A DNA stretch of 64,000 nt from Acidimicrobiales bacterium. Its GTDB lineage: Bacteria; Actinomycetota; Acidimicrobiia; Acidimicrobiales; Acidimicrobilacustridaceae. The translations under genes were made by a program, and so were the position numbers. Positions 20,554-23,417 of this stretch are shown here, piece by piece. The notes under the pieces were generated by a model. The model had not been told where the DNA came from. It did not search any database and saw only the letters and a list, made by a program, of their open reading frames with translations. The stretch's first letter is position 1, and every line of letters begins with the position of its first letter. The stretch lies in assembly GCA_025455885.1 (NCBI GenBank), contig JALOLR010000004.1:1-64000 (forward strand), written 5' to 3'.

Positions 20554-21135
20554 TCAGCCCCCGCCACCCCCGGTCCGGCGGTCGGCCAGCCGGGTGAGCA
20601 GATCGACGTGGGCGGCGAGGGGCGCCACCTCCAGCCCGTCGACCTTGCCGAGGTCGTCCCAGCGACGCAGGGCAACGGCGTCCGCGGCCACCGCGCCGGC
20701 GGCGAAGGCCGCCGCCTCCGCGGCCGAGAGCGGTCCGCCCTGTACCTCCAGGCTGCGCGTCGACGCCGGGGACAGAGCGGCGAGGTAGTCGGGGTCGGTG
20801 GCCGCCAGGTGGCGCTTGGCGCGCACGTGAGCCGCGATCGGGCCGGTGACCGACGACGGGAACAGGGGGGTGAGCCACGCCGCACCCGCGGTCTCGTGGT
20901 GGTCGTCGACGCCGGCGCGGAACGGACGGTCCTCGGCGAGGGCCAGGAGGTGGCCCACGTCGTGGAGGAGCGCCGCGGCCACCAGGTCGTCGGACGCACC
21001 GGCCCGCCGGGCCAGGGCGGCGCACTGGAGGGCGTGGTCGAGCTGGCTGACCTCCTCGTCGTACCGGTCGGCGCCGAAGGTGGTGAGCAGGTCGAGCACC
21101 TCGGCCACCGAGGCGGCGTGCGCCGCCGGCTTCAT
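20554..21135 (-). CDS. phnZ: PhnZ-like HD-domain mixed-valent diiron oxygenase
   Basis: The protein has 193 residues, close to the ~190 of PhnZ. By my recollection of PhnZ, ligands His34, His58-Asp59, His80, His104 and Asp161 are met here by His34, His58-Asp59, His80, His103 and Asp160. The gating Tyr24/Glu27 pair corresponds to Tyr25/Glu28 in DRYDEEVSQLDHALQCA. HVRAKRHL, VQGGP and RRWDDLGK are further matches. PhnZ cleaves the C-P bond of 1-hydroxy-2-aminoethylphosphonate to glycine and phosphate with O2. The ATG overlaps the stop of the PhnY-like gene (ATGA), which fixes the start. A TmpB-type specificity (trimethylated substrate) is possible. Confidence 0.85.
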   Translation of the reverse strand: MKPAAHAASVAEVLDLLTTFGADRYDEEVSQLDHALQCAALARRAGASDDLVAAALLHDVGHLLALAEDRPFRAGVDDHHETAGAAWLTPLFPSSVTGPIAAHVRAKRHLAATDPDYLAALSPASTRSLEVQGGPLSAAEAAAFAAGAVAADAVALRRWDDLGKVDGLEVAPLAAHVDLLTRLADRRTGGGGG

Positions 21136-21920
21136 CGCAGCACGCGGCCCTGGAAGTCGCCGATCAGCGACACCGGCACCCGGTCGTCGCCCGACGCCGC
21201 GGCGGCCGCGAACTCCTCGAGCTTGCGCCGGTAGTACGCGGCGCGCAGGTCGCCCTCGCGGGCGGCGTTGTAGGTCGGGTACAGCGCCCGTCGCCACGAC
21301 GTCGAGCGGTTGGGCCCGGAGCGGTGCGGGGTGCGCGAGTGGAACCACAGCACCTTGCCGGCGTGCACCTCGACGGGCTGCCAGTCGAGCGTCTCGACGA
21401 CATCGGCCCGGATGCACCCGGTGTCGTCGGTGGGCAACAGCTCGTGGTGGGCGCCGGCCACCACCTCGAGGCAGCCGTTGTCGAGGGTGGCGTCGTCGAC
21501 GGCCACCATGCACGAGACGTGCACCTCGACGAAGCGGTAGGCGGGGGCGTCCTGGTGGGGCGAGTAGCCGGCGCCTCCCGGCGCCTTGTGGTTGATCTTC
21601 TCCTTGTAGAGCACCGCCGGCTCGCCGAGGAGGGCCGAGGCGATCGCGAGGAGGGGTCCCGAGGTGAGCAGCTCACGGAGGTCGGTGTGGAAGGGGACGA
21701 AGTTCTCGCTGCGGCACAGCCGGGGACCGTCGTCGGTGGCCTCGCGGTAGTGCAGCCAGCGGCCCGCGCCGTCGGGCCATGCCGACACCTCGTCGACCCA
21801 GCCGGCCAGCGCGTCGACCGACGCGCCGTCGAGCGGCTCGGTGAGCAACCACCCGGTGGTCGCGAAGTGGTCGAGGGCCTCGGGTCCGAGGGAGGCCGGA
21901 GTGGGGCCGAGCGCGTCCAT
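21132..21920 (-). CDS. phnY: PhnY-like 2-oxoglutarate/Fe(II) dioxygenase (PhyH family)
   Basis: The protein has 262 residues with a PhyH-family jelly roll. The iron triad is His122-x-Asp124 (YSPHQDAPAY) and His199 (SRTPHRSGPNRS), with Arg205 or Arg210 a candidate 2-oxoglutarate ligand. YKEKINHKAPGGAGYSPHQD resembles PhnY/TmpA proteins, which hydroxylate the alpha carbon of 2-aminoethylphosphonate or its trimethyl derivative. It is translationally coupled to the PhnZ-like oxygenase, the enzyme that uses its product. A TAACGT box (21927-21932) ends 6 nt before the ATG, indicating a leaderless start. It is divergent from the phosphonate-ester hydrolase gene. Without the partner it would only be called phytanoyl-CoA dioxygenase-like. 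Confidence 0.82.
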   Translation of the reverse strand: MDALGPTPASLGPEALDHFATTGWLLTEPLDGASVDALAGWVDEVSAWPDGAGRWLHYREATDDGPRLCRSENFVPFHTDLRELLTSGPLLAIASALLGEPAVLYKEKINHKAPGGAGYSPHQDAPAYRFVEVHVSCMVAVDDATLDNGCLEVVAGAHHELLPTDDTGCIRADVVETLDWQPVEVHAGKVLWFHSRTPHRSGPNRSTSWRRALYPTYNAAREGDLRAAYYRRKLEEFAAAAASGDDRVPVSLIGDFQGRVLR

Positions 21921-21989
21921 GCCCCGACGTTACGCGGCGGGGGATCGGATCCCGCCGGGACCGGGGCCGGGCCTACCCTGCTGGCCACC
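21921..21989. promoter_or_regulatory. Divergent promoters of the phosphonate cluster
   Basis: This 69-bp gap separates the PhnY-like and esterase genes. It contains the minus-strand TAACGT box (21927-21932) and plus-strand TACCCT (21974-21979, 10 nt before the GTG). GGCGGGGGATCGGATCCCGCC at 21935-21955 is an inverted repeat with GGATC/GATCC core, a candidate shared operator. Confidence 0.5.
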
Positions 21990-23417
21990 GTGAACGTGCT
22001 GCTCATCACGCTCGACCAGTTCCGCGGCGACTGCCTCTCGGCCGCCGGGCACCCGGTCCTGCGCACCCCCGGTCTCGACGCGTTGGCCGCCGGGGGTGTC
22101 CGCCTCGCCCGGCACTACAGCCAGGCGGCGCCGTGCGCCCCGGGGCGGGCGGCGCTCTACACGGGCACCTACCAGATGAACAACCGGGTGGTGGCCAACG
22201 GCACCCCGCTCGACGACCGCTTCGACAACGTCGCCCGGGTGGCCCGGCGGGCCGGACGCGACCCGACGCTGTTCGGCTACACCGACCAGGCCGTCGACCC
22301 GCGCACGGTCGACGACGCGGCCGATCCTCGCCTGTCCACCTACGAGGGGGTGCTGCCCGGCTTCGCCGTGGGTCTCGACCTGACGGGTTCGCAGGCCGCC
22401 TGGCGGGAGTGGGTGGCCGGCCGGGGCGGTGACGTGCCGGGCGACGCCGCGGGCGCGCTGGCCACCGAGCCCCGCCGGCCGGCGGAGCTCGGCATCAGTG
22501 CCTTCCTCACCGACCGTTTCCTGGCGTGGCACGCCGAGCGCGACGGTCCCTGGTTCGCCCACCTCAGCTACCTGCGCCCCCACCCGCCGTACGCCGCGGC
22601 GGGGGAGTGGTCGACGGCGTACGCGCCCGACGACGTCGACCTCCCGATTCCCGTCGCCCCCGCCGAGGACCTGCACCGCCTGCACCGGATGCTGCTCGAC
22701 CTCCCATTCGCGGCGGCTCCGACCGACGAGAGCGCGGTCCGTCGGATGCGGGCGCAGTACTACGGGATGATCGGCGACGTCGACCACCAGATCGAGCGGC
22801 TGGGAGCGGCGTTGCGCGCGCGGGGCCAGTGGGACGACACCGTGGTCGTCGTCACCAGCGACCACGGCGACCAGCTCGGCGACCACGGGCTGGTGGACAA
22901 GTTCGGGTGGTTCGAGTCGAGCTACCACGTGCTCGGGATCGTGCGCGATCCGAGCCGCCCGGCGGCCCATGGCACGGTGGTGGACCGCTTCACCGAGAAC
23001 GTGGACGTGCTGCCCACCATCTGCGACGTGCTCGGGATCGACGTCCCCCGCCAGTGCGACGGCGCGTCGCTGGCGGCGTTCCTCGACGGCGGGGAGCCGC
23101 CGCGGTGGCGCCAGGCCGCGCACTGGGAGTTCGACTGGCGGGTCTTCGGGCTGATGTCCGGGCAGAGGTCGGGTTGGCCGTCGGATCGGCGGGCCGAGCG
23201 GCGGCAGGTGACCGTGCTGCGGGGCGAGGACCGGGCGTACGCGCAGTTCGCCGGCGGCGACGCGCTCACCTACGACCTGGGTGTCGACCCGACGTGGCGT
23301 ACGCCCGTCACCGACCCCGAAGCGGCCTGGGCCGACGCCCGGGCCCTGCTGGCCTGGCGAGCCGAGCACGCCGACCGCACCCTCACCGACACCCTGCTCG
23401 GCCCCCCGATGTCCTGA
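21990..23417 (+). CDS. Phosphonate monoester hydrolase/sulfatase-like enzyme
   Basis: The protein has 475 residues of the alkaline-phosphatase superfamily. The start VNVLLITLDQFRGD supplies the metal-binding Asp. Cys49-A-Pro51-G-Arg53 is the CxPxR motif converted to formylglycine. VVVTSDHGDQLGDHG carries the second metal site. TYQMNNRVVANGTPLDDRF, YTDQAVDPRT and the C-terminal AWRAEHADRTLT track the Rhizobium/Burkholderia phosphonate monoester hydrolases rather than typical arylsulfatases, as I recall them. It lies 69 bp from, and divergent to, the PhnY/PhnZ pair, which supports a phosphonate-ester substrate. Promiscuous sulfatase activity remains likely. Activation needs a formylglycine-generating enzyme encoded elsewhere. 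Confidence 0.82.
   Translation: MNVLLITLDQFRGDCLSAAGHPVLRTPGLDALAAGGVRLARHYSQAAPCAPGRAALYTGTYQMNNRVVANGTPLDDRFDNVARVARRAGRDPTLFGYTDQAVDPRTVDDAADPRLSTYEGVLPGFAVGLDLTGSQAAWREWVAGRGGDVPGDAAGALATEPRRPAELGISAFLTDRFLAWHAERDGPWFAHLSYLRPHPPYAAAGEWSTAYAPDDVDLPIPVAPAEDLHRLHRMLLDLPFAAAPTDESAVRRMRAQYYGMIGDVDHQIERLGAALRARGQWDDTVVVVTSDHGDQLGDHGLVDKFGWFESSYHVLGIVRDPSRPAAHGTVVDRFTENVDVLPTICDVLGIDVPRQCDGASLAAFLDGGEPPRWRQAAHWEFDWRVFGLMSGQRSGWPSDRRAERRQVTVLRGEDRAYAQFAGGDALTYDLGVDPTWRTPVTDPEAAWADARALLAWRAEHADRTLTDTLLGPPMS

Follow-up and report, generated by a model that had tools for sequence, protein, structure and literature searches.

The methylphosphonate pathway formed by PhnY and PhnZ1 in Gimesia maris and Prochlorococcus MIT9301 pairs a PhyH-type hydroxylase with an HD oxygenase (PMC6581173, PMC10574752), and Prochlorococcus has possibly evolved the use of esters via phnYZ, with no ester hydrolase named in the available portion of that source (PMC6581173). 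PEH-like enzymes have been proposed to act before C-P lyase by releasing phosphonates from their esters (PMC5649143); in Sulfitobacter, a PEH is found beside C-P lyase use with formation of methane, and the accessible text reports this as co-occurrence in genomes, not as gene linkage (PMC5649143). Here we describe a locus in which likewise a PhyH-type and an HD protein are encoded together, and are joined by a predicted ester hydrolase. It is situated in a 64,000-nucleotide stretch of an Acidimicrobiales bacterium (assembly GCA_025455885.1, contig JALOLR010000004.1, positions 1 to 64,000 of the forward strand; hereafter the window) and consists of a phnZ-like gene, a phnY-like gene and a gene resembling D-type phosphonate monoester hydrolases (PMHs). 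We consider it probable, with some reserve, that this trio constitutes a three-step phosphorus-scavenging unit for phosphonate esters.

All three open reading frames of the first-pass annotation were recovered at their positions. The phnZ-like gene (20554-21135, minus strand) encodes a protein of 193 amino acids classed as an HD-domain di-iron oxygenase by its TIGR03276 match, metal ligands and predicted fold, and the phnY-like gene (21132-21920, minus strand) a 262-amino-acid PhyH-family Fe(II)/2-oxoglutarate (2OG) dioxygenase, recognized by PF05721 and an HxD...H triad. The phnY stop and the phnZ start share an ATGA (21132-21135, minus strand), an overlap suggestive of the translational coupling proposed in the annotation. 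The PMH-like gene (21990-23417, plus strand, 475 amino acids, GTG start), assigned by its Sulfatase domain and residue signature, diverges from phnY across an intergenic region of 69 bp (21921-21989); in 16 relatives, the called starts are separated by 35-98 bp.

The trio recurs in related genomes, as the annotation had suggested checking. Among 37 sampled genomes of the window's family, 22 yield a strong HD match, and 18 of these (window included) harbor the complete trio with the PMH divergent from phnYZ. Contig ends interrupt the locus in three others (G001, G008, and G019), and G026 carries the HD gene alone, also across 19 kb. Genes flanking the trio are common within the window's genus and different in a second genus; hence it is the trio, not the region, that is conserved, and this conservation makes an accidental neighborhood very unlikely.

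Gene orders were surveyed in the best 80 of 336 phnY loci, several of which belong to genomes also counted in the family and order samples. A PMH gene is adjacent (at most 100 bp from phnY, or in overlap with phnZ) in 20 of these loci, three of the adjacent PMHs being cut by contig ends. The PMH diverges from phnY-phnZ in 15 cases, precedes phnY and phnZ in the same direction in four (L197, L234, L240, and L245), and precedes a phnZ that converges with phnY in one (L249). A fourth order, with codirectional PMH, phnZ and phnY, is found in two genomes of another family (L140 and L141). In L249 and L140 the PMH frame shares 4 nt with phnZ; in L240 it shares 13 nt, as called, with phnY. In a tree built quickly from 93 PhnY proteins (24 with PMH adjacency, 53 without, 16 undecidable), adjacency requires at least six changes; gains and losses are indistinguishable, and the tree has long branches. 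Of the PMHs placed on the PMH tree, the 21 that are adjacent all fall within a single clade (34 rows, starred support), which includes unlinked PMHs as well. The PhnY and PhnZ proteins of L140 and L141 are 39-43% identical to those of the window and their PMH 60-64%; one PMH type is thus paired with two PhnYZ types, and this combination is the strongest argument for a shared pathway. As a separate observation, single open reading frames in L160 (7266-8780, minus strand, 504 amino acids) and L161 (7397-8800, plus strand, 467 amino acids) combine PhnY and PhnZ parts, recalling the fungal PhoF; the family scan behind this covered L160.

The hydrolase matches Sulfatase (PF00884) with 145 bits and the PehA model NF045661 with 379.5 bits, below its cut-off of 900. 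Its closest solved chain is 4uph (1.2e-114), followed by the PMHs 2vqr and 2w8s (~1e-85). According to the part of the source at hand, PMHs are set apart from new arylsulfatases at two active-site positions, occupied by Tyr and Asp/Thr vs Lys and His (PMC5488252). The window protein carries the PMH pair, Tyr97 and Asp99, and lacks the arylsulfatase Lys/His pair. Across 38 aligned rows (window plus 37 relatives) the Asp and the C-x-P-x-R motif are invariant (38/38 each), and the Tyr is present in 37, with His in L082. Cys49 (codon 22134-22136, plus strand), the expected formylglycine nucleophile, sits in C-A-P-G-R. By its residue signature the hydrolase is a D-PMH, and phosphonate monoester hydrolysis is predicted. 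An ordinary sulfatase that came to lie here by accident would account for the Pfam domain and the C-x-P-x-R motif; given Tyr/Asp in place of Lys/His and a linkage that is repeated across genomes, we rejected this explanation as highly improbable. The resemblance to PMHs noted in the annotation thus held, and instead of the sulfatase devoid of co-occurrence that it had named as the damaging outcome, we found PMH residues and recurrent adjacency to phnYZ in several orders. The N-terminus of the hydrolase, like the consensus of 13 relatives, opens directly on the catalytic domain, so that the enzyme is probably cytosolic; a cytosolic PMH in turn means that its substrate must enter the cell. Residue 10, next to metal ligand Asp9, is Gln in the window and Glu in 12 of the 38 rows, all of genus g2 (including L038, L043, L045, and L052).

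The PhyH protein (PF05721, 97.5 bits) finds its best NCBIfam match in the methylphosphonate hydroxylase PhnY model NF052437 (259.6 bits, E 3e-77, cut-off 500), suggesting a relative of that hydroxylase, not necessarily the identical enzyme. H122, D124, H199, and R210, which we take to be the HxD...H triad and its accompanying Arg, are invariant in alignments of 23 and 31 rows. The structure predicted for this protein (pLDDT 94.2) resembles PhyH-type 2OG hydroxylases generally, with ~17-29% identity among the 50 matches listed, and its model is confidently of that fold. Assignment to a PhnY/TmpA type in the first-pass annotation stood for PhnY and probably not for TmpA: no TmpA chain appeared among the Protein Data Bank (PDB) matches at E<=0.1, in a PDB copy whose content of TmpA was unverified, and two TmpB-like plasmid genes adjoin dioxygenases of TauD/TfdA type, not PhyH type. 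TmpA itself is not known to be of PhyH type.

The HD protein scores 212.6 bits (E 3e-63) against TIGR03276, the phosphonate degradation HD oxygenase model, 2 bits below the cut-off of 214.6. Its iron ligands H34, H58, D59, H80, H103, and D160 align with H34, H58, D59, H80, H104, and D161 of PhnZ, confirming the spacing noted earlier, and all six are invariant in 57/57 rows (window included), as is Lys107, presumably the phosphonate-binding residue. The Tyr/Glu pair claimed in the annotation is present as well; its spacing is Y25-x-E27, one residue tighter than the YxxE of the PhnZ and TmpB lid (PMC8177086). As this tight form occurs in 52/57 rows (exceptions being L140, L141, L055, and L179, which lack the Tyr, and L102 with Leu), YxE marks an HD subclade and not a lone change. 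A structure predicted by AlphaFold2 on 32 sequences (pLDDT 92.7) was compared by Foldseek, and below E 1e-3 it matched only PDB chains of TmpB, the top match, and PhnZ (10 chains, TM ~0.8); MIOX was reached only at E 0.26. The HD protein is therefore not placed outside PhnZ/TmpB, and its modeled fold is that of a PhnZ/TmpB oxygenase, for which O2-dependent C-P cleavage is predicted. In PhnZ relatives at L140:8165-8734, L141:8033-8566, L179:4559-5110, and L055:8971-9567, the lid Tyr is missing and His-Gly replaces His-Glu at the third ligand, possibly reflecting another substrate.

These features also bear on a serial pathway acting on esters of 2-aminoethylphosphonate (AEP), for instance a glycerol ester from phosphonolipids, with glycine as product. 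Glu27, whose PhnZ/TmpB counterpart contacts the substrate amine in the portion of the structural report available (PMC8177086), is retained in 53/57 rows, and the HD protein scores almost equally against the Gimesia-type hydroxymethylphosphonate-dioxygenase model (154 bits) and the TmpB model (148 bits), each with a cut-off of 300. On the other hand, the PhnY-like protein is nearest to a methylphosphonate hydroxylase model, while an AEP-enzyme model, which may not exist, gave no match; HF130 PhnZ, the characterized AEP enzyme, has YxxE where the window clade has YxE; and the PhnZ proteins encoded codirectionally with a PMH in L140 and L141 lack the lid Tyr. We regard an AEP route as rather unlikely.

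The genomic background was examined in 20 trio genomes, 18 of the window's family and two of another, with 16 of the 20 belonging to one genus. PhnJ was found in none (0/20), nor was phosphoenolpyruvate (PEP) mutase over its cut-off (0/20, one weak match); there is accordingly no sign of C-P lyase use or phosphonate synthesis in these genomes, a background consistent with PhnYZ degrading phosphonate of foreign origin. Phosphonate-bd (PF12974) gave any match in eight of the 20, seven over the Pfam cut-off and all but the strongest below 35 bits, and none contains a recognizable PhnD. The only match in the window genome (98 bits, contig C3) was rejected as a phosphonate transporter, being an Rv1680-family protein. 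Some relatives with phnYZ and no adjacent PMH carry a phosphonate transporter next door, namely PhnD, PhnC, and PhnE by family models in L149 and by similarity in L248 and L256, PhnC and PhnE only in L251, and PhnD-like matches in L160 and L162. PF12974 reached at least 110 bits in 7/25 genomes with phnY and no adjacent PMH vs 0/20 trio genomes (Fisher p 0.012). This hints weakly at complementarity between PMH and phosphonate-binding protein, weakly because 16 of the 20 trio genomes are of one genus.

Formylglycine-generating enzyme (FGE) was not found in any of the 20 by a PF03781 search, whose control was positive in 4/14 named genomes; PF03781 matches in G000 and G081 were rejected as EgtB, over the cut-off for that family and each adjoining an EgtD also over cut-off. 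The radical-SAM sulfatase maturase TIGR03942 exceeded its cut-off in 9/20 trio genomes vs 2/14 controls, with 463.5 bits in the window genome (G000:C8:22068-23174, in L306) and a fragment of 234 bits in G006. This maturase adjoins another sulfatase in L307 and L309, and none was seen beside it in L306 or L308, so that a link to the trio PMH is only possible. Where neither maturase was found, the possibilities are a further maturase, activity of the unmodified Cys, or maturase genes that escaped detection or are absent from the assemblies.

Co-occurrence was further assessed across 248 genomes sampled from the order (PMH E<=1e-60, HD E<=1e-12, phnY E<=1e-25), in which PMH was detected in 47 genomes, the HD gene in 66 and phnY in 34. 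PMHs divide by score into those of the trio clade (22 genomes) and others (25 genomes); phnY is present in 16/22 genomes with a trio-clade PMH vs 18/226 without, a contrast whose Fisher values ignore relatedness, and is also linked, more weakly, to the other PMHs at the genome level (8/25). Several observations count against a dedicated ester-scavenging unit. Among the 16 genomes with both trio-clade PMH and phnY, nine have them adjacent and seven apart as assembled (one of these, G217, with a fragmentary phnY and no HD match found), and six of the 22 lack phnY (G098, G175, G200, G224, G261, and G270), which indicates that the PMH also has work without phnYZ. No PMH was seen in 60/80 surveyed phnY loci within the stretch examined, partly owing to contig ends. 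In a phylum sample, phnY (E<=1e-40) was found in 16/396 genomes, and the sole carrier outside the class, G367, has no PMH within 16 kb of it; nor did a PMH accompany phnYZ on plasmids in 10 of 27 HD records checked by annotation, five of the ten also by PMH search. The trio has no known importer, and neither maturase was found in 10/20 trio genomes, including G035, G010, and G016, which are 97-100% complete. All three proteins miss their equivalog cut-offs, and known PMHs, in the available text of two studies, cleave phosphodiesters besides phosphonate monoesters (PMC5649143, PMC5488252).

The dual activity of PMHs and the six genomes without phnY would equally suit a phosphorus-starvation cassette without serial action, in which the PMH serves as a phosphodiesterase, PhnYZ independently use free phosphonate, and the genes are neighbors through being needed under the same conditions. 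A cassette of this type is at odds with the pairing of one PMH clade with phnYZ across those repeated changes on the PhnY tree and including the divergent L140/L141 proteins, and with PMH frames that overlap phnZ or phnY; moreover, no PHO-box-like repeat was noticed by eye in 17 intergenic regions, a systematic motif search not having been made. We consider it unlikely.

In the phosphonate-ester pathway that we favor, the probably cytosolic PMH, with Cys49 presumably converted to formylglycine, would cut an imported phosphonate monoester into free phosphonate and alcohol. The PhnY-like Fe(II)/2OG dioxygenase would then hydroxylate the carbon next to phosphorus (C1), and the PhnZ-like di-iron HD oxygenase would use O2 to split the C-P bond into phosphate and carboxylate; with methylphosphonate, the products would be phosphate and formate, and no methane. 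For the ester hydrolysis and subsequent oxidative C-P cleavage envisaged in the annotation, the enzyme classes and the linkage were borne out, and we infer action in series because the genes are linked. We tentatively name methylphosphonate as the single most likely substrate, favored because of the PhnY model match and of literature on ester-bound methylphosphonate, as far as the accessible text of these papers goes (PMC6581173, PMC5649143); AEP or another alkylphosphonate may serve instead. A fully specified version, by which aerobic Acidimicrobiia import an intact methylphosphonate monoester, free the phosphonate by a cytosolic D-PMH matured by a radical-SAM enzyme and not by FGE, and oxidize it to phosphate and formate, is doubtful as a whole.

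Titles of the 80 phnY loci include Acidimicrobiia, Acidimicrobiales, Microthrixaceae, and Ilumatobacteraceae, and some trio carriers have isolate names such as Baikal-deep and Pasture; many of the other sets we take to be lake plankton. Eight loci titled Bifidobacterium breve (L204, L210, L213, L220, L230, L242, L247, and L253) have phnY genes 59-67% identical to that of the window and group with Acidimicrobiia-titled records, and are probably mislabelled metagenome-assembled genomes. On plasmids, PMH at E<=1e-80 was found in two records, and phnYZ is not annotated in the one inspected. The Hymenobacter record L281 has a sulfatase-like gene ~5 kb from its HD gene and no PMH match at 1e-8 in the stretch examined. 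A Labrenzia plasmid (L284:4778-7361) encodes, in frames that overlap by 4 nt, a TauD-type dioxygenase, a TmpB-like HD protein and an 'alkaline phosphatase family protein', which makes it another oxidative phosphonate pair with an attached hydrolase. Plasmids of Rhodococcus and Dietzia (L277 and L278) share the order phnY-phnZ, methionine-synthase-II-like gene, 2OG oxygenase, YaaH-type transporter and MurR/RpiR regulator.

Each kind of enzyme in the trio is already known, and what is new is the joined unit of ester hydrolase and phnYZ, of which no description was found in the literature library searched, which lacks most subscription papers. If the unit is a recurrent combination of ester hydrolysis and oxidative C-P cleavage, it would give the promiscuous PMHs a biological role and add a possible methane-free sink for phosphonate esters. 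The fully specified version, with a D-PMH matured by a radical-SAM enzyme, would provide the PMH family with a natural substrate class, and C-P lyase, which forms methane, with a rival for the pool of esters. With three soluble-looking proteins, ester use is directly testable. The window hydrolase shares its residue signature and sequence family with PMH/PehA of Rhizobium, Burkholderia, and Ruegeria; the partner of the Sulfitobacter PEH is the C-P lyase, whereas the window PMH is linked to phnYZ in genomes devoid of PhnJ. In MIT9301, phnY and phnZ1 lie beside a phosphite/phosphonate ABC transporter, with no PMH named in the available text (PMC6581173, PMC10574752), and the window proteins fall below the equivalog cut-offs of the corresponding models. 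PhoF, the fungal PhnY-PhnZ fusion, combines the same two activities, but is fused and eukaryotic, and no PMH is mentioned in the portion of the source at hand (PMC10574752). TmpB of the TmpA/TmpB system for N-trimethyl-AEP is the top PDB match of the window HD protein, and has a YxxE loop. The PhnZ of the HF130 PhnY*/PhnZ pair, which acts on AEP, shares the HD fold, the metal ligands, the Lys and Glu27 with the window protein at 38% identity, and differs from it in the loop, YxxE in HF130 and YxE in the window.

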